Virus record (IMG/VR): IMGVR_UViG_3300032220_000640 | Span: 1-36,829 of that record | Source: a virus | Reading direction: 5' to 3' (one strand) | Length of the DNA stretch: 36,829 bases | In this document: positions 947 through 36,829 of the stretch, in pieces | Layout: each line of letters opens with the position of its first letter | How positions within the stretch are numbered: position 1 is the stretch's first letter | Position numbers and translations under genes: made by a program | Notes under the pieces: generated by a model | Database searches by the model: none | What the model was told of the DNA's origin: nothing | The model's input: the letters and a program-made list of their open reading frames with translations, nothing else

Positions 947-2470
947 TCGCCAATTGTTGCTCCCGTTGCGGTACCCGCAAGGAAGTTAAGTTTGGCTGAA
1001 CAAACGGCAATGCGCGAAGCCCAAGCTCGCAATGCCCGTGTCATGCGTATTATCCCTGGCACGGGATTTTTGTCTCCAGAAAAAGGGCTGCGCTCTAACC
1101 AACAATCCCAAGCTCTTTTGCAGGGTCTTTCATTCAATACATCTGATGAAATAGCTTCGGCGCTTGCCGCAGCCAGAACAGGAATATCAAACTTAAGGGG
1201 GCGCGGTCCTGGATTTAGCGCCAGAGAAGCTTACGACGCTCGTATGCGCCAAGAGCGCGAACAAATGGGTCAGTTTCAAGCTGAACGTCCAAACGAATCT
1301 ATGTTTCTTAACGTAGCTGGCGCACTTGCTAACCCGCTTACACGGCGTAATGCTGGCTATATAGCTGCTGGAAAAACTGTCCCTCAAGTCATGGGCCGTG
1401 CAGCATTGGTTGGGGGCGTTCAAGGAGCCGCCGCCGGAGCCGGAGCCGGTAATGACCTTGAATCTCGTATTAAAGGGGCAATTGGTGGGGGCGTTGCTGG
1501 CGGGGCTGCAACTGGGCTTGTAAGCGGCGTTGGGCAAAAGTTGGCTCAAGGCTTGGCGGGGCGTGCGGTTAGACGTGCCCAGCCAACTTTTGACGCTCTT
1601 GAGAAAAAAGCATCTGATTTATATTTGCAAGCCGATCAAGCCGGATTGATTATTAAATCGTCTAGCATAAATAAATTTGCAAATAATTTAGTTACAGACA
1701 TTACATCAAAGGGTCTTAGGCGACGACTTCATGCCAACGCTATGGGAGCGTTAAACGAACTTAAATCTATAAAAAGTGATATGTCTCTTAAAGAAGCTGA
1801 ACTTACTAGGCGCGTAATAAAAGATTACGTTCAATCATCAAAAAATAAATCTGATAAAAGAATGGGTTATCTTATTCTTGATAAATTTGATGATTTTGTA
1901 GATAACCTTTTACCCACAGACACCGTTGCTGGATCTAATGCTAGGCCAGCCGTAGATTTGCTTAATAAAGCTAGAGGCGTTTATAAAGTTAACGCTAAAG
2001 GTGAAACTATTGAAGATTTAATTACTAAAGCTAAAAATAATACTGGTCCACTTGGAATTAAATTAGAGCAAAACATTATATCTGAGTTTAAAAAACTAGC
2101 TAACACTAGAGGTATTAGTAGATTTAGCGAAGAAGAACAAAAAGCAATTAGAAATGTTGCTAACGGTTCTGTAACTAGAAATGTAATTTCTACCTTGGGA
2201 AAACTTGCTCCTAGTTTTAGTTTGGTAGGCTTGAGCGGACTTGCATCAGCGGCTTATGGTAATTTTGGTCCGTTAATTGGTGGCGCAATAACGGCAGGTA
2301 TGGTTGGCATTCCATCAAAAATTGCCGCTACAAAAGCTACTGTTAATGCCGCTAGGTTAGCCGCAGCTTTGGCAAAAGGCGCTAAGGCACCCGTAGCTAG
2401 TGCCCGTCCTGCGGCAACGGCTGGAACAATAGCTGGAGCATATGTCGCTCCTCGCACTAGGAGCAAATAA
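893..2470 (+). CDS. Probable internal/ejection virion protein with FDEFD repeats
   Basis: A 525-residue protein. It opens with two tandem copies of PNAFDEFD (residues 2-9 and 10-17). Short N-terminal NxFDxFD-type repeats occur in other podophage internal proteins; that is from memory. Around residues 165-215 there is a long Gly/Ala-rich stretch (GGVQGAAAGAGAG, then GGGVAGGAATG) that looks like glycine-zipper membrane-interacting sequence. The C-terminus (about 440-520) is again hydrophobic and Ala/Gly-rich. This pattern fits a DNA-ejection protein that inserts in the cell envelope. The first third is GC-richer than the AT-rich middle (about 1600-2250), so the gene itself looks mosaic. It overlaps the next gene by one base (TAATG). 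Confidence 0.6.
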   Translation: MPNAFDEFDTPNAFDEFDSPIVAPVAVPARKLSLAEQTAMREAQARNARVMRIIPGTGFLSPEKGLRSNQQSQALLQGLSFNTSDEIASALAAARTGISNLRGRGPGFSAREAYDARMRQEREQMGQFQAERPNESMFLNVAGALANPLTRRNAGYIAAGKTVPQVMGRAALVGGVQGAAAGAGAGNDLESRIKGAIGGGVAGGAATGLVSGVGQKLAQGLAGRAVRRAQPTFDALEKKASDLYLQADQAGLIIKSSSINKFANNLVTDITSKGLRRRLHANAMGALNELKSIKSDMSLKEAELTRRVIKDYVQSSKNKSDKRMGYLILDKFDDFVDNLLPTDTVAGSNARPAVDLLNKARGVYKVNAKGETIEDLITKAKNNTGPLGIKLEQNIISEFKKLANTRGISRFSEEEQKAIRNVANGSVTRNVISTLGKLAPSFSLVGLSGLASAAYGNFGPLIGGAITAGMVGIPSKIAATKATVNAARLAAALAKGAKAPVASARPAATAGTIAGAYVAPRTRSK

Positions 2471-2898
2471 TGCCTTTCAACGGATCTGGTACGTTTGTCG
2501 TTACAACGAGCGGTATTCCCGTCGTAACGGGCACGGTCATCTCATCAACCATGTTCAACAGCCTGATGACGGAGCTATCGACCGGGCTGTCGTTGACGTT
2601 GACTAAGGATGGGCAATCCACGCCGACGGCGAACATCACCTTGGGCGGTTACAAGCTGACCAATGTCGGGGTTCCAACGCTCACTTATGACGCGCTCAGT
2701 TTTGGGCAGGTAGCGACCATCTCAACGCTCACCCTGACGAACGCGCTCACGGCGGGGAATGGTGGTACTGGATTGACCTCTGCCGGTACAGTAGGGAATG
2801 TGCTAACGAGTAATGGAACAACGTGGGTATCTTCTGCTAATGCCGGCGCACCGGCTGGTGCTTCGATCTACACAGCTAATAACTTTGGAGGCTTCTGA
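2470..2898 (+). CDS. Short fibre-like tail protein
   Basis: A 142-residue protein starting MPFNGSGTFVV, an opening commonly seen in phage fibre proteins. Residues about 95-120 carry AGNGGTGLTSAGTVGNVLTS followed by NGTTWVSS, the Gly/Thr-rich 'GNGGTG...GTVGNVL.SNGT.W' pattern typical of trimeric tail-fibre shafts. There is no large receptor-binding domain after it, so this is either a short adaptor fibre or a truncated fibre. Starts and stops overlap its neighbours by one base (TAATG upstream, TGATG downstream), indicating tight coupling. GC content rises abruptly at this start. Confidence 0.65.
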   Translation: MPFNGSGTFVVTTSGIPVVTGTVISSTMFNSLMTELSTGLSLTLTKDGQSTPTANITLGGYKLTNVGVPTLTYDALSFGQVATISTLTLTNALTAGNGGTGLTSAGTVGNVLTSNGTTWVSSANAGAPAGASIYTANNFGGF

Positions 2899-3344
2899 TG
2901 GCCGTTACATCCACCCCGATTTTCGCGCAGACGCCATATGCTAAGTCGCTGACGCTGGCCGCGCAGACTGCATCTACGACTCGCGCCCCAACTGGCACAG
3001 CAGGCTTGGCTGCGGCCAACATCGTAGCGTTTGTGCCTGTCTCAACCAACGGCCTGCGGATTGACAGCATCCAGGTTAACAACTGCGGCACGGGCATTTC
3101 GACCGCCAACGCTGCCCAGCTTGTTGATATCTGGCTGTGGGACGGCACGACGGCGTTCCTGATCGCTGAAATCCCGGTGCTTGCCACTACGCCTAGCACG
3201 ACCGCTGCGGCGTTCAACACGACCTTCACCTTCCCGCAGCCGTTGAATCTGCCTGCGGCGTTTGCTTTGTATGCCAGCACAACGGTTACGACCACGGCGG
3301 CTGGTACGGCGCTGCAAGTGACGGCCTACGGCGGGGCGTACTAA
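2898..3344 (+). CDS. Hypothetical tail/virion beta-rich protein
   Basis: A 148-residue protein, very rich in Thr, Ala and Val with almost no charge, consistent with an all-beta virion protein. The central region reads GLRIDSIQVNNCGTG then DIWLWDGTTAFLIAE, reminiscent of small beta-sandwich tail or decoration proteins. There is no signal peptide. Coupled by one-base stop/start overlaps on both sides. I cannot assign a family; a tail-associated structural role is inferred from context and composition. Confidence 0.55.
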   Translation: MAVTSTPIFAQTPYAKSLTLAAQTASTTRAPTGTAGLAAANIVAFVPVSTNGLRIDSIQVNNCGTGISTANAAQLVDIWLWDGTTAFLIAEIPVLATTPSTTAAAFNTTFTFPQPLNLPAAFALYASTTVTTTAAGTALQVTAYGGAY

Positions 3345-3799
3345 TGACCTCGGTTGCGGCGGCTTTTGATTATCGTACGATTGTCAGCCCCAGCCTTGTT
3401 GGGGTTCTGATAAATAATGCCGTTGAGCCGACTACGGTAACCAACGTGGCGGCAACCGGGACCATCATCTACGAGGTCAACTCTCAGTCGGTGGTGTACT
3501 CGACGGCCAGCGCCACGGCCAACTGGACCCTGAACATCGTCTATTCAAAGGCGATGCCGCTGAATGCGTACTTGGGTATCGGTCAGAGCGTGACGATTGC
3601 GCACATGGTCACGCAGGGGGCGACGGCCTACTACAACAACGTGTTGCAGATTGATGGCGTGACGGTTACGCCAAAATACCAAGGTGGGACGGCCTACGCT
3701 GCGGGTAATGCCAGCAGCATTGATGTGTACACCTACACTGTAACCAAGACGGCAGATCGGACGTACACGGTCTTCGAGTCGCAGACAAAGTTTGCTTAA
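3344..3799 (+). CDS. Hypothetical tail-associated protein
   Basis: A 151-residue, Thr/Ala/Val-rich, probably all-beta protein. The segment LGIGQSVTIAHMVTQGATAY followed by YNNVLQIDG and later YQGGTAYAAGNASSIDVYTY resembles small tail proteins I recall from marine and freshwater phages, where it follows fibre genes. No catalytic motifs. It overlaps the previous stop by one base and is followed by a five-base gap before the sulfotransferase gene. Confidence 0.55.
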   Translation: MTSVAAAFDYRTIVSPSLVGVLINNAVEPTTVTNVAATGTIIYEVNSQSVVYSTASATANWTLNIVYSKAMPLNAYLGIGQSVTIAHMVTQGATAYYNNVLQIDGVTVTPKYQGGTAYAAGNASSIDVYTYTVTKTADRTYTVFESQTKFA

Positions 3800-3804
3800 G
3801 CCGC

Positions 3805-5565
3805 ATGGAACTGCACTTTCTCGCTGGACTGCCCCGCTCGGGGTCCACCCTACTCGCCGCCATTCTCAACCAGAACCCGGCGGCTAAGGTCAGTTCCACC
3901 AGCGAGTTAGTCAATATCCTTGATGTTTTGGCCAACCTCTGGGCGAAGGCGCACACGCTCAGCATCCGTGACCCAGAGCGCACGCGGCTGATCGAGGTGA
4001 TGCGCGGCGTCATCAATGCCGAGTACAAAGACGCTCCCGCCGTCGCCATCGACAAGAGCCGGGAGTGGCCGCGACCAGACATCATGCAGTCCATGCCGAT
4101 GGTGCTGGGCCGTCCTATGAAGATCATTGCGACTGTGCGCGACGTGCCGGATTGCGCTGCCTCGTTTGCACGCATTGCCAAGCCCGAAGACCTGAACTCG
4201 TTCCTAGTGGACAGCAGCTTCATCCAGCACCTGCAAGGCTCGTATGTCAGCCTGCAGAGCGGCTACGCGGCGTATCCAGAGGCGTTCCTGTTTGTTGAGT
4301 ACGAAGACCTGTTGGCTGACCCGCAGGCGCAGCTTGACCGCGTTCATGCTTTTTTGGACCTGCCGCCCTTTGTTTACAACTTTGAGAACATCGACGGCAG
4401 CACGGTTGCGGAAGACGACGCGGCGCTGTGGAACGCGCCAGGGCTACACGACGTTCAACCCAAGCTGGAACGGCAGCATAATCAAAGCGCCCGCGACGTA
4501 CTGGGCAAGCGATACGCCCAGTTTGCACAGCCTGCGTTCTGGCGTGCGGATCCAGGTCAGCCGGAGATACACACCCTTGACCTACAACTTGCTGCGTCTC
4601 GGGTAGGCAACTTTGCTGAAGCGTGGAAACTATCAGAACAGCTCGTTGCGGAAGAACCTGAGAACGACCGCGCCGCCTATAACCGTGGCTGGTATCTGCT
4701 GCGGCAGGGCAAGCTGCAACAGGGCTTTGCGTTGCTGGATCGTGGCCGCAAAGAAGGCGTATTTGGCAATCGTAACCCCGGCACGCCGCAGCCGCTGTGG
4801 GATGGCAAGTCCCAAGGCACCGTGCTGCTGTACCTCGAAGGCGGGCTAGGCGATCAAATCCACCAAGTTCGCTATGCCAAGAATATCGCGGCGCGAGGCT
4901 GCAAGGTGGTCGTAGCCTGCTCGGATGCGCTGGTGTTTATGCTCAACCAGGTTAAGGGCCTGTCTGCCATCGTGACCCATGACTCGGTTCTCGGGGTTTA
5001 CCACGACTTCTGGACGCCGGGGATGAGCGCCCTAGTGCCGCTGGGCTACGAGTACCGGAACGTCTGCGGCAGCGCGTATATCCCCAAGCCCTTTGTTGAG
5101 CGTGAATTTCGCAAGCGGATTGGTCTGCGTTGGTCTGGCAATCCCAGGTTCGAGCATGAGCAGCACCGCGTTTTCCCACCGGAGCTGATGTTCGAAGCCG
5201 TGAAGGGCATTGACGCTGACTTCGTGTGCCTCCAACGCGACAACGACATGGAGGTCTGCCCCGACTGGGTGCGTCAGGTGCCGCTGGATGACTGGCTAAA
5301 GACCCAGGAAGCCGTCGCCTCTTGTGACCTGGTGATCACCTCCTGCACGTCGGTGTCGCACCTAGCTGCGGCGATGGGCGTTGAGACTTGGGTCGCCCAG
5401 CCGATCATGCCGTACTACCTGTACGCAAGGCCGGGAGACAAGACTGCATTTTATGATACGATGCGGCTATACAGGCAGGAAGTCTTTGCTGACTGGGTTG
5501 CCCCGTTCGAAGCTATGCGTCGTGATTTGAAGCAAGAGGAAGTTTCCCATGCCAATGTGGGTTAA
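3805..5565 (+). CDS. Sulfotransferase-TPR-glycosyltransferase fusion
   Basis: A 586-residue multidomain enzyme. Residues 1-240 are a sulfotransferase: the 5'-phosphosulfate loop is GLPRSGSTLL (8-17) and the 3'-phosphate motif is RDVPDCAASFARI (112-124), both characteristic of PAPS-dependent sulfotransferases. Residues about 255-325 form a TPR-like helical linker (AYNRGWYLLRQGKLQQGFAL). Residues about 335-560 look like a GT9/heptosyltransferase-type domain: EGGLGDQIHQVRYAKNIAARG (345 onward) and CDLVITSCTSVSHLAAAMG (507 onward). Predicted roles are transfer of sulfate and of a sugar to a glycan, but substrates are unknown. It sits among tail genes, and its last 17 bases overlap the next gene. 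There is no signal peptide, so it would act in the cytoplasm. No obvious Shine-Dalgarno precedes the start. Confidence 0.85.
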   Translation: MELHFLAGLPRSGSTLLAAILNQNPAAKVSSTSELVNILDVLANLWAKAHTLSIRDPERTRLIEVMRGVINAEYKDAPAVAIDKSREWPRPDIMQSMPMVLGRPMKIIATVRDVPDCAASFARIAKPEDLNSFLVDSSFIQHLQGSYVSLQSGYAAYPEAFLFVEYEDLLADPQAQLDRVHAFLDLPPFVYNFENIDGSTVAEDDAALWNAPGLHDVQPKLERQHNQSARDVLGKRYAQFAQPAFWRADPGQPEIHTLDLQLAASRVGNFAEAWKLSEQLVAEEPENDRAAYNRGWYLLRQGKLQQGFALLDRGRKEGVFGNRNPGTPQPLWDGKSQGTVLLYLEGGLGDQIHQVRYAKNIAARGCKVVVACSDALVFMLNQVKGLSAIVTHDSVLGVYHDFWTPGMSALVPLGYEYRNVCGSAYIPKPFVEREFRKRIGLRWSGNPRFEHEQHRVFPPELMFEAVKGIDADFVCLQRDNDMEVCPDWVRQVPLDDWLKTQEAVASCDLVITSCTSVSHLAAAMGVETWVAQPIMPYYLYARPGDKTAFYDTMRLYRQEVFADWVAPFEAMRRDLKQEEVSHANVG

Positions 5566-5920
5566 GGTTTCTAACGATGTCGTCGTTCAGTGCTGGGACA
5601 CGCCACCCCCTACCGGTGAAGACGGCTGGCGCGATGCCATTGAGGTTCGCCCACCCGTTACGCAATATCACGAGGTCTACGGCCAGCACTATTTTGACCT
5701 GACAAAGACGCCCGTTGAGATCGTCTGGCCGATTGAGGCTGTCTCGATTGAGGACCGCAAAGCTGACATGCTGGCTTATGCCAAGCTGTTGTCTGAGAAG
5801 GGCGAACCCGGCACCTCCGAGGCGGATTTTGATCCGGTTGCCGCGCAGGCACTGTACGCTACCCGCGTTGCCGCCATTGAAGCCGCACAGACGCACGACG
5901 ACCTAGACGCGGTGCCGTAA
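5549..5920 (+). CDS. Tail-fibre-assembly-like small protein
   Basis: A 123-residue protein. The N-terminal half (WVKVSNDVVVQCWDTPP) looks like a small beta domain of phage fibre-assembly or tail accessory proteins. The C-terminal half (IEDRKADMLAYAKLLSEKGE...) is helical and is of the kind found in proteins after fibre genes. It begins inside the end of the preceding enzyme gene. AGAGGAAG about six bases upstream supports ATG 5549 rather than ATG 5555. Function is inferred from resemblance and position. Confidence 0.5.
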   Translation: MPMWVKVSNDVVVQCWDTPPPTGEDGWRDAIEVRPPVTQYHEVYGQHYFDLTKTPVEIVWPIEAVSIEDRKADMLAYAKLLSEKGEPGTSEADFDPVAAQALYATRVAAIEAAQTHDDLDAVP

Positions 5921-5921
5921 G

Positions 5922-7058
5922 ATGCCCACGATTTTCACCAGAGGCGCAGCGTCTGCCAGAGGCTTTGGGCTGTTTGGTACGGTTGCGGGCGGCGCTAGCG
6001 GTGGTTTGTGGTCGTGGGGGGATAACGGCAATGGACAACTTGGCCTTGGCAATATACTCAGCAAATCTTCTCCCAATCAAGTCGGCGCACTGACAACGTG
6101 GGCTACGGTATCGGGGGGTTATGGGGCCACGTTAGCCGTCAAAACAGATGGTACATTGTGGTCTTGGGGAAGAAACAGTTTCGGCCAACTTGGCTTAGGC
6201 AATATAACTAACTATTCATCACCCAAACAAGTTGGCGCATTAACAACGTGGTCTAAGGTATCAACGACATACGTACATTCGTTAGCCATTAAAACAGACG
6301 GCACTCTTTGGTCGTGGGGAAAAAACAACTTTGGTCAACTTGGCCTTGGCAACATAACCAATTACTCCTCGCCCAAACAAGTCGGTGCATTAACAACGTG
6401 GTCTAAGGTGGAAGCTGGAAATTATTTTTCGTTAGCCATTAAGACCGACGGTACGTTGTGGTCGTGGGGAGACGGATCTGTTGGCGATCTTGGCCTTGGT
6501 AACACGACCAGTTATTCTTCACCCAAACAAGTTGGCGCACTGACAACGTGGGCTAAAGCGGTGTCGGGGGGCGGGAATTTTTCGTTAGCTATTAAGACCG
6601 ACGGTACGTTGTGGTCTTGGGGGTTTAACAATCAGGGCCAACTTGGCCTTGGCAATATAACCAACTATTCCTCACCTAAGCAAATCGGTGCATTGACAAC
6701 GTGGGCTACGGTAGCACCGGGAACTGCAAGTGCCTTTTCGGTAGCCGTCAAAACCGACGGTACTCTCTGGTCTTGGGGATACGGTGGTCAAGGTCGGCTT
6801 GGCCTTGGCAACATAACCAACTACTCTTCGCCAAAGCAAGTCGGTGCCCTGACAACGTGGTCTAAGGTAGCGATTGGCAATGGTTTTGGGTTAGCTACCA
6901 CAACTTCGGGTGCGCTTTGGTCGTGGGGGCGAAACGACGTCGGTCAGCTTGGCCTTGGCGACGTCACCAACCGTTCGTCGCCCGTGCAGGTCGGCGCACT
7001 GACAACGTGGTCTGTGGTGACATCGGGTTCAATTTTTGCGTTAGCCATTAAAACCTAA
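5922..7058 (+). CDS. RCC1-repeat seven-bladed propeller protein
   Basis: A 378-residue protein with a 28-residue lead and seven RCC1-type repeats of about 50 residues, each starting LWSWG and containing GQLGLGN..., SSP.QVGALTTW and AIKTDGT. Seven repeats match the seven blades of an RCC1 beta-propeller. Positions after each LWSWG (for example GDNGNG, GRNSFG, GKNNFG, GFNNQG, GYGGQG) and after LTTW vary, while the cores are almost invariant. RCC1 folds are binding platforms. Given its place between tail accessory genes and lysis genes, a tail tip or receptor-binding role is the simplest inference. No signal peptide. Confidence 0.88.
   Translation: MPTIFTRGAASARGFGLFGTVAGGASGGLWSWGDNGNGQLGLGNILSKSSPNQVGALTTWATVSGGYGATLAVKTDGTLWSWGRNSFGQLGLGNITNYSSPKQVGALTTWSKVSTTYVHSLAIKTDGTLWSWGKNNFGQLGLGNITNYSSPKQVGALTTWSKVEAGNYFSLAIKTDGTLWSWGDGSVGDLGLGNTTSYSSPKQVGALTTWAKAVSGGGNFSLAIKTDGTLWSWGFNNQGQLGLGNITNYSSPKQIGALTTWATVAPGTASAFSVAVKTDGTLWSWGYGGQGRLGLGNITNYSSPKQVGALTTWSKVAIGNGFGLATTTSGALWSWGRNDVGQLGLGDVTNRSSPVQVGALTTWSVVTSGSIFALAIKT
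6006..7055 (+). repeat. Seven tandem RCC1 coding repeats of about 150 bases
   Basis: Seven in-phase units begin TTGTGGTCGTGGGG or close variants. Each contains CTTGGC(C/T)T(T/A)GGC and ends near ACAACGTGG. The units are highly similar at DNA level, with variation confined to short loop codons, so unequal recombination could change blade number or order. Confidence 0.9.
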
Positions 7059-28933: not shown

Positions 28934-29470
28934 ATGGCTTATACTTTTGACGAACCCAAAGCCGGCCTACTCCAAATCGCTAACACCGATACTGGTGTTA
29001 CGATGGCGAACGGCTCCTCGGCTATCCCGACTCCTCCTGCCGTTCTCGGCATGGTGTGTCGGGCTTTTGACCCGACTTACGGCGAAGGTGAATTTATCCT
29101 TCTCGTAGGTGTTGCCTCTACGGTTGTCGGTTCTCTAGTGACCTACAGCACCACAACTTACCAAACTGCGCTTTCGCCCGACACGGCGAACCTGGCGCAG
29201 CCTGTAGCTGTGGCAATGGCGGCAAATACCGCTGGCCTCTTTGGCTGGTATCAAATTGAGGGTCTTGCCGTTGTGAAGAAAACTGCGGTTGCAGTAAGCC
29301 CCAACGTTCCTGTTTTCCAGTCTGCCACTGTTGGGCGCGTTATGCCCACTGCGACTGCTGGCAAGCAAGTTCTAGGCGCTCGTAGTGCTAATTTGGCTTC
29401 GGTTGCCGCTGGCGTTTCGACCATTATCGTGTCGATTAACCGTCCGCACATGCAAGGCCAAATCACCTAG
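28934..29470 (+). CDS. Head decoration or stabilisation protein (probable)
   Basis: A 178-residue, Ala/Val/Thr-rich, beta-type protein (MAYTFDEPKAGLLQIANTDT start; GEGEFILLVGVASTVVGSLV; AAGKQVLGARSANLASVAAG...). Size and place after the capsid gene fit a decoration protein, possibly of the DUF2190 type. Ends with a one-base overlap (TAGTG) with the next gene. Confidence 0.6.
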   Translation: MAYTFDEPKAGLLQIANTDTGVTMANGSSAIPTPPAVLGMVCRAFDPTYGEGEFILLVGVASTVVGSLVTYSTTTYQTALSPDTANLAQPVAVAMAANTAGLFGWYQIEGLAVVKKTAVAVSPNVPVFQSATVGRVMPTATAGKQVLGARSANLASVAAGVSTIIVSINRPHMQGQIT

Positions 29471-30315
29471 TGATTCTATCGTCAAACCTTGATGAGAAAA
29501 TTCCAGTCGTGTGTAACACGGAGGATGATGTCATTTTCAGCAACATAACTGCTGCTGTAAAACGTCATCTTCCGTGGCTTGGGATGACCGAGCCTCACGA
29601 CAAGGTGGCTGTAATAGTAGGGGGGGGTCCTTCCATGAAGGGCCTCCTTCCGCTTATCTCAAAGCACAAATCGGCTGGGCATACCGTCTTTGCCGTTAAC
29701 GGGGTTATTCCAAGCCTTTTGAGCGTGGATGTTACGCCTGACTATTTTGTCCTTTTGGACGCCAGGGAAGACAATCTTTCCTTTTTGCACCCTGACCTAC
29801 CAGTTCATAACCTGATCGCTTCCCAGTGCCCTCCCAGCGTCTTTAAGGCGCTAGAAAAACAAGAAATTACCCTTTGGCACACTGCTTATCCTAAAATTGC
29901 AGATTACATTGGTGACCGTGAGTGCGCCCTTATAGGCGGCGGGACTACGGTTGGCCTTCAGGCCATGAGCATTGCCTTTGCAATGGGCTATCGCCAGATC
30001 CACCTATTCGGTTTTGATTCCAGCTATTCCCACGTTGGGGAAGGCCATGCCTACGCGCAGTCGGTTAACGACAATGACCCTCGCGACACATACAGGGTTG
30101 GCAAACGCGAATACGTTGCAGCGCCCTGGATGGCTCGCCAAGCGGTAGAGTTTCAAGAAGCTGCTCGCCAATTGGCTGATGCTGACGCTGAGATCTACGT
30201 TCACGGTCACGGGCTTCTGCCGGCAATTGCACGCGCCATGTCACAGCCACCAGAAGAAATCTCTGAAGTGGATAAATACAAAGCGATGTTTTATGTTAAA
30301 CGAAACTTGGCTTAA
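29470..30315 (+). CDS. DUF115 / Maf-like (MptE-type) protein
   Basis: A 281-residue protein starting with GTG. KVAVIVGGGPSMKGLLPLI (about 45-63) is the nucleotide-binding GGGPS loop; LIGGGTTVGLQAMSIAFAMG then YRQIHLFGFDSSY is the second hallmark of the DUF115 (6-hydroxymethylpterin pyrophosphokinase-like, flagellin Maf) family. In bacteria, relatives add nonulosonic acid sugars to flagellin. In phage genomes such genes are seen near structural genes with unknown substrate. Here it is placed between capsid and head-tail genes, so virion or cell-surface glycan modification is possible. Confidence 0.8.
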   Translation: MILSSNLDEKIPVVCNTEDDVIFSNITAAVKRHLPWLGMTEPHDKVAVIVGGGPSMKGLLPLISKHKSAGHTVFAVNGVIPSLLSVDVTPDYFVLLDAREDNLSFLHPDLPVHNLIASQCPPSVFKALEKQEITLWHTAYPKIADYIGDRECALIGGGTTVGLQAMSIAFAMGYRQIHLFGFDSSYSHVGEGHAYAQSVNDNDPRDTYRVGKREYVAAPWMARQAVEFQEAARQLADADAEIYVHGHGLLPAIARAMSQPPEEISEVDKYKAMFYVKRNLA

Positions 30316-32160: not shown

Positions 32161-33715
32161 ACGGAACGCGCTGGTTCAACGTGCGGCGGCTGATGTTCAA
32201 TCGCTGCCGGCACCCGTAGGCGGCTGGAATGCTCGCGATTCACTTGCGAACATGGAGCCAACAGATGCCGTCGTGTTGGAGAACATGTTCCCAACGGTGT
32301 CGAGCGTTGTCTTAAGGGGCGGCTATACCAAATGGGCGACTGGCATGGCGGGCCAAGTCCAGACCATTATGATCTATTCTGGCGGTAACACGACAGAGGT
32401 CTTTGCCATAACGAGCGGCGGGGCTTTGTACGATGTCACGGCCACTGGACCTGTTGGCGCACCCATTCTAACCGGGTTTTTAAGCGGCAAGTGGGAATAC
32501 ACCAATATCGCTACGTCAGGCGGCAACTTCCTGATGGCGGTTAATGGCGCTGATTATGCCCTGTTGTACGACGGCACGTCTTGGTCATCCATAACCAGCG
32601 TTTCTGCACCCATTGCCATTACCGGGGTTGATACCCGCGACCTTCACAACATCGTCCTGTTCAAGAACCGCATCTGGTTTATCCAAAAGGAAACGCTGAA
32701 GGCTTGGTATCTGCCTACCAGCTCCGTTGGCGGAGCAGCGGAACAATTCAGTCTGCAATCGGTTGCCAGAGATGGCGGCTATCTTGTCGATCTGGATGCG
32801 TGGACCATTGATGCTGGCTACGGCGTTGATGACAACCTGGCCTTTGTCACCGACTCCGGCGAAGTCATTATCTATCGCGGCACCGATCCAGCCAGCGACG
32901 CTACCTGGGCGCTGATTGGCGTCTGGAAGCTCGGCGCTCCTGTCGGTGAGCGGTGTATGCTGAAGTGGGGCGGCGATCTGTTGATCCTCACCTACGACGG
33001 CCTAGTGCCTATGGCGGCATCCCTGCAAAGCTCCCGGCTAGATCCTCGCGTATCGCTGTCCAACAAAATTCAGGGGGCCATTACAGCGGCCACGACGGCC
33101 TATGGATCTGCTCCGGTTGGCTGGGAGATTGTTTACAACGCCAAGACCAACGCACTCTGGATCAACGTTCCCGTAGCTGTGGGAAGCCAGCAGCAATATG
33201 TGATGAACACCATCACGAAGTCTTGGTGCAATTTTACGGGCTGGTCAGCGAACTGCTGGGCCATCGTAAACAACGATCCGTACTTCGGAAGTGATGGCTA
33301 TATAGGCAAAGCTTGGGATGACAGCTACGCTGACGACGACACTAATATCGCGACAAACACCCTTCAAGCGTTCAACTATTTTGGGTCCAGAGGCGTCAAG
33401 AAGTACTTTACCCGCGCCAGAGCCAGCATCTTTACGGATGGCCTGCCGGCAATCTTTGTCGGCATGAACGTTGACTTTGATACCGCCAACACAACTGCGC
33501 CCCTGGCGTTCATCCCATCTGCCACCGGGCTATGGGACATTGGCTACTGGGATGACGCGATTTGGGGCGCTGGAAATATCATTACGAACACCTGGCTGGG
33601 CATTACCGGGATCGGTTATTGCGGCGGGATTCAGATGGTAACTGGAAGCCAGCAAACTCAAATTGAATGGGCTTCAACAGATGTGGTATATCAAAGCGGA
33701 TGGGCGGGCGTATAA
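32150..33715 (+). CDS. Tail tubular B-like/tail protein
   Basis: A 521-residue protein from MAARRNALVQ, the ATG overlapping the previous stop region; an earlier start 10 codons up is less likely. The N-terminal LPAPVGGWNARDSLANMEPT followed by DAVVLENMFPTVSSVVLRGG is the landmark of podophage tail nozzle-like proteins ('P.GG.N..D.......A..L.N..P......RGG'). The rest is beta-rich, ending near GLWDIGYWDDAIWG, similar to the N-terminus of the 26236 protein. It would build the lower tail tube. Confidence 0.7.
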   Translation: MAARRNALVQRAAADVQSLPAPVGGWNARDSLANMEPTDAVVLENMFPTVSSVVLRGGYTKWATGMAGQVQTIMIYSGGNTTEVFAITSGGALYDVTATGPVGAPILTGFLSGKWEYTNIATSGGNFLMAVNGADYALLYDGTSWSSITSVSAPIAITGVDTRDLHNIVLFKNRIWFIQKETLKAWYLPTSSVGGAAEQFSLQSVARDGGYLVDLDAWTIDAGYGVDDNLAFVTDSGEVIIYRGTDPASDATWALIGVWKLGAPVGERCMLKWGGDLLILTYDGLVPMAASLQSSRLDPRVSLSNKIQGAITAATTAYGSAPVGWEIVYNAKTNALWINVPVAVGSQQQYVMNTITKSWCNFTGWSANCWAIVNNDPYFGSDGYIGKAWDDSYADDDTNIATNTLQAFNYFGSRGVKKYFTRARASIFTDGLPAIFVGMNVDFDTANTTAPLAFIPSATGLWDIGYWDDAIWGAGNIITNTWLGITGIGYCGGIQMVTGSQQTQIEWASTDVVYQSGWAGV

Positions 33716-34143
33716 AAAGCGGCGATGAGGTTGGTCATTGGGTGGCTGACAAACTGAGGACGGTTTATTCCCCAGAAAGTTCTGCTGCAATTGGCTTGAT
33801 TAAAGACGATAAAATTGTTGCCGGAGTCATCTACGAGAATTGGAACCGCAGATCGGTAGTGACGCATATAGCTATTGATGGAAGGTTAACTCGCTCTTTT
33901 CTTTATGCTATTTTTCACTACCCGTTTGTTACCTGCGGGGTCAATAAGATCATATCTGCCGTTAACGACACGAACACCAAGAGTGCCTTAATGGTTACAA
34001 ATATGGGATTCATAGCCGAGGGCAGACTTAAAGATTGTTCTCCAGACGGAGATATAATCCTTTACACGATGCAGAAATCGGATTGCAGGTTTCTAGGGAA
34101 ACGATATGGGCAAGAACACTCCGAAGCCGCCAGCGCCAATTGA
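33700..34143 (+). CDS. GNAT-type acetyltransferase-like phage protein
   Basis: A 147-residue protein from ATG 33700 (MGGRIKSGDEVGHWVADKLR); an ATG at 33667 would extend it by 11. AIGLIKDDKIVAGVIYENWN, then THIAIDGRLTRSFLYAIF, GVNKIISAVNDTNTKSALMV and LGFIAEGRLKD-like MGFIAEGRLKDCSPDGD fit the phage GNAT acetyltransferase pattern. Target unknown; such genes are typical accessory members of podophage structural blocks. Overlaps the tail gene upstream and the S74-type gene downstream. Confidence 0.72.
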   Translation: MGGRIKSGDEVGHWVADKLRTVYSPESSAAIGLIKDDKIVAGVIYENWNRRSVVTHIAIDGRLTRSFLYAIFHYPFVTCGVNKIISAVNDTNTKSALMVTNMGFIAEGRLKDCSPDGDIILYTMQKSDCRFLGKRYGQEHSEAASAN

Positions 34144-35821: not shown

Positions 35822-36829
35822 TGCCTGACATCAGCCTCACAGATTATAGCTCCCAGCTTGCCGCCAATGCGCGGCAACAGCGAATGGCTGAATTGCTCCA
35901 ACAGCAGTCTATGGAGCCTATTCAAATAATGACCGCTGGTGGCGCTCAGGTTCCAATTCCGTTTACGGCTGCGCTGGCTAAAGTGTTGCAAAGCGGCTTG
36001 GGCGCGTACAAGGCGTCTCGGGCTGAGAAGGGTGCGGCTAAGATTAAGGCTGCTCAAGGGACCGAAGCTAGGGATTATATTAAAGGCACAAGAACTGGTT
36101 CTCAAATTAGCTTACCTGGCGTCACAACGCCTGCCGATCTGAATCGGTCTGCTGCTAATTTGGATACCGATCCAGGTCTTAAATATAAAATTGCAGCCAT
36201 GCTAGATCGGGGCAATCCTGCGGCGCAAGGCGGTCCTGCTCCTCAAGGCACTCCTGCAATGCCTACTCCGCCCATGCCTACGCAACTCGCTATGCCCGCT
36301 CAAACGCCTATGGGTGGGCAACCGCCTATGGGTGGACCGCCTATGCCTGCTCAACCAACTATGAGTATGTTTCCTCAATCGGGTCCTCGTGCGCCTTTAA
36401 TTGCTCCGCAATTGACTCGCGACATAACGACGGAAGAACAAGAGGCTCGGTATGAAGAAGCTGCTAACAGCGACAATCCACGCTTAGCAGCTTGGGGTCA
36501 GCGCCATCTTGATGAGATTGACACCATTAAGGCTGAAGAACGTAAATTAATTACGGTTGGAGCCGGGGATCAAATTGGACGAATAGCTGGCGGTAAATTT
36601 ACTAAACTAGTTTCAGCCCCCCAAGTGCCTAAAAGAAAAAGCGCATATGATTCATTTGGAAATGTCATTGTTAGTTGGGAAGAACCCCCAGAAGGGGGAA
36701 TTACTGATCCAACGACGACTCCAATTCCAGAAATTGGATCTCAAGGCAATCAACCGCCTACCGTTATGTCTCCAGAAGATGCTCAAAAACATCCAGATTC
36801 AAGATATCTAATTCGTGGAGATGTCAATC
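35821..36829 (+). CDS. Probable internal virion protein, 5' part of gene crossing the join
   Basis: Starts with TAATG overlap and stays open to the window end; with 124-164 it makes about 349 residues. N-terminal helices (MPDISLTDYSSQLAANARQQ, AALAKVLQSGLGAYKAS) are followed by a Met-Pro-Gly-Gln low-complexity part (about residues 140-195: PAMPTPPMPTQLAMPAQTPM, GGQPPMGGPPMP) and a polar C-terminal half. The Met/Pro part resembles the 21828 protein. Base composition falls to AT-rich after about 36400. No recognised family; position beside ejection-type genes suggests virion content. Confidence 0.75.
   Translation, partial: MPDISLTDYSSQLAANARQQRMAELLQQQSMEPIQIMTAGGAQVPIPFTAALAKVLQSGLGAYKASRAEKGAAKIKAAQGTEARDYIKGTRTGSQISLPGVTTPADLNRSAANLDTDPGLKYKIAAMLDRGNPAAQGGPAPQGTPAMPTPPMPTQLAMPAQTPMGGQPPMGGPPMPAQPTMSMFPQSGPRAPLIAPQLTRDITTEEQEARYEEAANSDNPRLAAWGQRHLDEIDTIKAEERKLITVGAGDQIGRIAGGKFTKLVSAPQVPKRKSAYDSFGNVIVSWEEPPEGGITDPTTTPIPEIGSQGNQPPTVMSPEDAQKHPDSRYLIRGDVN
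36707..36829. repeat. Terminal direct repeat, right copy
   Basis: Exact 123-base copy of 1-123. Confidence 0.97.

Follow-up and report, generated by a model that had tools for sequence, protein, structure and literature searches.

A phage gene lying among virion genes encodes, in a single polypeptide of 586 residues, a predicted sulfotransferase, a short TPR segment and a predicted GT-B-type glycosyltransferase, and genes of this family are closely linked to genes for RCC1-repeat beta-propellers. We propose, with a probability of roughly one half, that the product acts in the cytoplasm late in infection and adds both sugar and sulfate to the phage's own virion adhesins, either RCC1 propellers or fibres. 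To our knowledge there is no precedent for such a post-translational modification system acting on phage particles. In the window, i.e. the whole stretch of 36,829 nucleotides that was analysed, the first 123 bp (1-123) recur exactly at the end (36707-36829) as a direct terminal repeat, which makes it very likely a complete phage genome of 36,706 bp that was assembled as a circle; its last ORF runs across the repeat junction, and terminase, portal and major head genes are present. The features considered here are as follows.

2470-2898, plus strand: short tail-fibre-like or virion protein (weak PHROG matches)
2898-3344, plus strand: small protein of the fusion's gene block that close relatives also keep next to the fusion
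3344-3799, plus strand: small protein of the fusion's gene block (weak PHROG match, virion structural protein)
3805-5565, plus strand: ST-TPR-GT fusion protein, 586 aa (ORF, Pfam, conservation, structure model, fold matches)
3805-4554, plus strand: predicted sulfotransferase domain, residues 1-250 (PF13469/PF00685, conservation, TPST1/2 fold match)
within 3805-4554, plus strand: sulfotransferase motifs, namely the 5'-PSB loop P10-R-S-G-S-T15 and the 3'-PB residues R112 and S120
4573-4755, plus strand: two TPR-like helical hairpins, residues 257-317 (four helices in the model; TPR_16 below cut-off; profile match to consensus TPR)
4810-5553, plus strand: predicted GT-B glycosyltransferase domain, residues 336-583 (model, Foldseek matches, invariant motifs)
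within 4810-5553, plus strand: glycosyltransferase motifs GG-x-G-D350, W443 and CTSVSHL (H519)
5549-5920, plus strand: next gene, overlapping the fusion gene by 17 bp and resembling a small gene, F3, of related loci
5922-7058, plus strand: RCC1-repeat beta-propeller with 7 repeats, candidate substrate (PHROG regulator of chromosome condensation, E 3e-66)
29470-30315: MptE-like/DUF115 protein beside head genes (Pfam E 1e-21; NCBIfam PseD flagellin-modification domain E 1e-11)
33667-34143: acyl-CoA N-acyltransferase (PHROG 4470) gene within the structural region

Domain architecture of the fusion protein

An intact ORF of 586 codons occupies 3805-5565 on the plus strand, exactly where a sequence-only reading had placed a sulfotransferase, TPR and GT9-like glycosyltransferase protein of 586 residues, and this domain assignment is borne out by Pfam, the structure model and fold comparisons. 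The same reading had located the gene among tail genes, which agrees with its start, in a run of virion genes, 5 bp past the gene ending at 3799, a gene with weak virion-structural PHROG matches. Comparison with the three closest relatives gave dN of 0.008-0.024 and dS of 0.32-0.48, with dN/dS of about 0.02-0.05 in all domains, indicating that this is no chance ORF. Structure prediction, suggested by the sequence-only reading as a check, yielded a confident model (pLDDT 93.2, pTM 0.77) with sulfotransferase and GT-B folds from an alignment of 75 sequences that includes distant GT-only and ST-only homologues; an earlier model from 19 close homologues only was poor (pLDDT 58). Among predicted viral structures, no counterpart covered the full length of the protein (best TMq 0.53).

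In the N-terminal half, GLPRSGSTLL lies at residues 8-17 and RDVPDCAASFARI at residues 112-124, and the first 190 residues match Sulfotransfer_3 (E 3e-17) and Sulfotransfer_1 (E 8e-14), each passing its curated cut-off. P10, R11, R112 and S120 are present in 100% of 38 sequences and S12-T15 in 92-97%, contrary to the possibility, raised beforehand, that the homologues are all inactive at the P-loop; T32, W88 and H215 join the first four as invariant family-wide. The nearest Foldseek matches were the human and tick tyrosylprotein sulfotransferases (TPST1/2, fold E 5e-8), PKS and heparan sulfotransferases being also among the matches, and a PDB profile search of the family returned TPST with E 7e-14. 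We assign the first half, from the model, as a PAPS-dependent sulfotransferase with the P-loop sulfotransferase fold, predicted to transfer sulfate. TPST1/2, the best match in both structure and sequence profile, shares the PSB and 3'-PB motifs with the phage protein. In TPST the catalytic Glu sits after the PSB loop, whereas profile alignment puts a variable residue and, at the second Glu, the invariant Thr32 in place of its Glu-Glu site in the phage protein, which also has no Golgi anchor of the TPST kind. Candidates for the sulfotransferase base are the invariant T32, the D83/K84/R86 region and H215. Sulfotransferases of cyanophages and OM43 phages (e.g. S-SRM01, S-SKS1) possess a homologous Sulfotransfer_3 domain (PHROG 27463) but are stand-alone proteins of ~260-280 aa without TPR-GT, and the function of phage sulfotransferases has been called unclear (PMC10580990).

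The TPR segment was detected by Pfam as a sub-threshold TPR_16 match (E 1e-4, residues 262-313), and in the PDB profile search the family profile matched consensus TPR proteins with E 1.6e-11. For the C-terminal half, no Pfam model, GT9 included, matched the window protein (last 250 residues) or any GT-bearing row of the 75-member alignment, so the glycosyltransferase call rests on predicted structure and homology. The predicted structure matches TibC, SPINDLY/OGT, WaaC and WaaF in Foldseek, and homologous proteins are annotated 'tetratricopeptide repeat-containing glycosyltransferase family protein'. G347, G349, D350, W443, T500, G525, Y537 and W564 are invariant across the family and H519 nearly so. 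The second half, which could have turned out to lack a nucleotide-sugar fold, is modelled as a GT-B-type, GT9-like glycosyltransferase domain of predicted activity. Given strong purifying selection and the (nearly) invariant P-loop and GT motifs, neither half of the fusion looks dead.

Three known systems resemble the C-terminal part. By its described architecture, FlmG of Caulobacter is likewise a soluble cytoplasmic enzyme in which TPR is directly followed by GT-B, but its 596 aa comprise TPR and GT with no sulfotransferase domain mentioned, and it is an O-glycosyltransferase whose substrate is flagellin (PMC7591256). The sugar attached by enzymes of the FlmG type is a nonulosonic acid. TibC and the bacterial autotransporter heptosyltransferases match the GT-B fold (E 3e-5) and have a candidate catalytic Asp in the N-lobe in common with the phage protein; TibC heptosylates adhesins (PMC4358343), a protein substrate of the type proposed here, but lacks the TPR and sulfotransferase domains, and its four-Cys iron finger is absent from the fusion, where C514 is the only conserved Cys of the GT region. 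SPINDLY/OGT (GT41) share the fold and the order of TPR then GT-B, but have a long TPR superhelix against only two hairpins in the phage protein, which carries an extra N-terminal sulfotransferase.

The additional resemblance to WaaC and WaaF, which are LPS heptosyltransferases, favours the main rival explanation, namely that the enzyme sulfates host LPS or capsule and adds a heptose or similar sugar to it in the manner of GT9, so that the receptor is altered and other phages are kept out. It is well established that some phages change the surface polysaccharide of their host. Yet the fusion sequence shows no membrane segment, it contains a TPR domain, and its gene sits in the structural block instead of in an early or lysogenic accessory locus; we consider this explanation unlikely.

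The phage family and its linkage to RCC1 genes

The sequence-only reading had called the combination unusual and proposed a search for the same architecture. The fusion proved to be no one-off: one IMG/VR scan returned 237 contigs encoding relatives, of which the best 80 matched over essentially the full length with 57-98% identity, and a second scan, with a 49%-identical protein from a contig binned as Phycisphaerales as query, added 80 more loci. Among genome contigs, full-length matches occurred only in three metagenome-assembled bins, with an RCC1 gene adjoining in at least two; the other matches were only to free-standing sulfotransferases, ~30% identical and mainly from Rhodanobacteraceae. 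A stand-alone sulfotransferase of ~270-280 aa is kept in many genomes of that family (Dyella, Rhodanobacter, Luteibacter; L085-L144). Literature searches turned up no relevant report of the fusion, or of RCC1 together with sulfotransferase, in phages, and this large family is widespread in uncultured phages and undescribed in the literature searched.

A tree of 73 GT sequences brings the fused proteins together in a single group (support 100/99), from which a single origin of the fusion is deduced. Among phages, the unfused relatives are TPR-GT proteins, and many of them extend further at the C-terminus; in BUCT-ZZ01 this extension resembles a methyltransferase. A split form, a TPR-GT gene with a separate sulfotransferase gene a few genes away, is found in Synechococcus phage S-SRM01 and marine virus AG-345-E08, and S-SRM01-like phages hold both genes in one RCC1-containing block. 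At one locus (L345, 4807-7340) ST-TPR-GT is directly followed by a second, free-standing sulfotransferase gene; L348 and L358 give two similar longer matches.

For five query groups, the loci with an RCC1 gene within ~5 kb numbered 79/80, 75/80, 72/80, 47/47 and 13/13. When the linkage was recounted after clustering GT proteins at 70% identity, RCC1 was found within ~5 kb in all 15 fused clusters and in 39 of 41 unfused ones, on the same strand in all linked clusters but one and immediately upstream in 40 of 56. The window has one RCC1 gene, two genes downstream of the fusion, and none immediately upstream; in 57 of 80 related loci the small gene F3 comes after the fusion (and RCC1) genes. Against a background of 25 RCC1-bearing records among 50,697 phage records, all GT-half records (BUCT-ZZ01, S-SRM01 twice, AG-345-E08) were the four best RCC1 matches, and simple counting puts the chance of GT/RCC1 co-occurrence in three distinct genomes at ~1e-10. 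Conversely, starting from RCC1, ~25 of 30 loci carried a sulfotransferase and/or GT gene; RCC1 proteins also occur in other phages without the GT half. Linkage to RCC1 and fibre genes across the five groups counts against modification of LPS or capsule. As regards the proposed virion role, the RCC1 linkage could mean a shared accessory zone instead of an enzyme with its substrate. GIY-YIG and apparent HNH-like homing endonuclease genes lie near ST-TPR-GT/RCC1 in several relatives (L043, 3827-4429; L021, 535-1038).

Within the RCC1 repeats, no candidate acceptor motif was found. Tyrosine sulfation of a conserved YSSP was considered and proved unsupported: Tyr precedes SSP at 56% and 44% in two groups only, at 5% in another sulfotransferase-bearing group and at 4% in a mostly sulfotransferase-less group.

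Bacterial relatives and partner genes

Plasmid matches to the GT half came from 82 records, mainly of Azospirillum and Burkholderiaceae. Seven bacterial neighbourhoods, not chosen at random, were inspected. The GT-half relative adjoins the pseudaminic acid synthase gene (pseI) in A. brasilense Sp7, a gene for an FHA-type protein in Pseudanabaena, GT25 in Komagataeibacter, and a tail-fibre-named gene plus an acylneuraminate cytidylyltransferase in A. lipoferum; in Caballeronia an FhaC-type secretion gene adjoins the GT gene, annotated as a methyltransferase-domain protein. The remaining two have unrelated-looking neighbourhoods. By analogy with FlmG (PMC7591256) and TibC (PMC4358343), such settings would be those expected for protein glycosyltransferases, and the placement of some relatives beside flagellin-glycosylation-type and adhesin-secretion genes again disfavours LPS or capsule as the target.

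A protein target need not belong to the virion. The FlmG-like architecture (PMC7591256), the pseI neighbour and the MptE/PseD-like gene of the window, a member of a flagellin-modification family, would all suit FlmG/Maf-like modification of a host flagellin or adhesin that blocks secondary infection or alters motility. The MptE-like gene, however, occurs in just 1 of 30 related phage records and was rejected as a constant partner, the fusion gene is closely linked to virion genes, and late expression would leave little time for turnover of the host surface, making this explanation quite improbable.

Several relatives carry further genes of possible relevance, whereas the window has the fusion and RCC1 genes without these other partners, its MptE/PseD-like gene lying elsewhere in the genome. 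GT25 (PF01755), which Pfam places in LPS biosynthesis, is present in some relatives and in 3 phage records only, the best being AG-345-E08; an HldE-like adenylyltransferase is also present in some (TIGR02199, E 2e-49, just below cut-off). Both could feed LPS chemistry and to that extent suit the LPS/capsule explanation, but 129 phage records have HldE-like genes, which are thus widespread among phages at large and weak evidence for a heptose donor. In AG-345-E08, 2OG-Fe(II) oxygenase genes lie beside TPR-GT, and the locus looks like a hydroxylation-glycosylation cassette; its TPR-GT gene is flanked by at least two such oxygenase-like genes, with RCC1, sulfotransferase and GT25 (L148, 3564-8495). 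The presence of GT25, HldE-like and oxygenase genes in some relatives also speaks for modification of virion proteins.

As to PAPS, 24 of 30 relative records encode a protein resembling APS kinase, though only remotely, which often carries a nucleotidyltransferase domain as well; in L032 (10529-11311) and its relatives the P-loop kinase is fused to an NMN-adenylyltransferase-like domain. Homologues of the long form, ~40% identical, occur in Stenotrophomonas, Xanthomonas and Clavibacter phages, those of the first two being full-length, and the Stenotrophomonas and Xanthomonas phages gave no match to the window protein in the ST/GT search. Since the long form thus occurs in phages without a matching sulfotransferase, PAPS supply by this kinase was kept as weak support. 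The window genome has no APS-kinase match, so PAPS would have to come from the host.

That the kinase-nucleotidyltransferase need not supply PAPS, with homologues in phages lacking a matching sulfotransferase, and that the fusion gene lies among virion genes, might also suggest that one or both domains are no polymer transferase, the protein instead being a part of the virion or a tail component that binds carbohydrate, or having a small molecule or a DNA base as its substrate. This is the least probable of the explanations considered, as the cofactor motifs of both domains are kept over large divergence and the split versions are two free-standing enzymes.

A proposed route to sulfated virion glycoproteins

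Taken with the RCC1/fibre linkage, the structural-block position and the protein-glycosyltransferase relatives, modification of virion proteins fits better than modification of host glycans. In the mechanism we propose, the two-headed enzyme would be made probably late in infection, and its short TPR would hold a protein substrate for the GT-B domain, which would move sugar from a nucleotide-sugar donor to Ser, Thr or comparable side chains of virion proteins that resemble adhesins; the likeliest acceptors would be the RCC1 beta-propellers or fibres encoded nearby. Sulfate from PAPS would next be passed by the sulfotransferase domain to the added sugar or to the same protein. The working mode would be that of FlmG or TibC plus a sulfotransferase, and the tail or adhesion apparatus would end up coated with sulfated glycans carrying negative charge, which may influence how the particle binds its receptor, how stable it is, or how well it withstands recognition and digestion. 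The domains, folds, conserved cofactor motifs, purifying selection and RCC1 linkage were computed; expression time, catalysis, donor sugar, substrate, reaction order and biological effect are what we infer. More tentatively, and with odds somewhat against it, a 'sulfoglycosylation cassette' (sulfotransferase and TPR-GT-B, sometimes with GT25, HldE-like protein and hydroxylase) may exist in several unrelated tailed-phage lineages, dedicated to sulfated glycans on virion RCC1 adhesins.

Phage sulfotransferase genes have repeatedly been reported as auxiliary genes of unclear purpose (PMC10580990). The RCC1 gene context of this sulfotransferase/glycosyltransferase family is a new result, and the fusion to a protein-type glycosyltransferase together with the tight RCC1 link leads to the testable claim that these genes serve the adhesion proteins of the particle, not host metabolism. 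If true, sulfated virion glycoproteins would alter the sequence-based reading of receptor binding, particle stability and host range.
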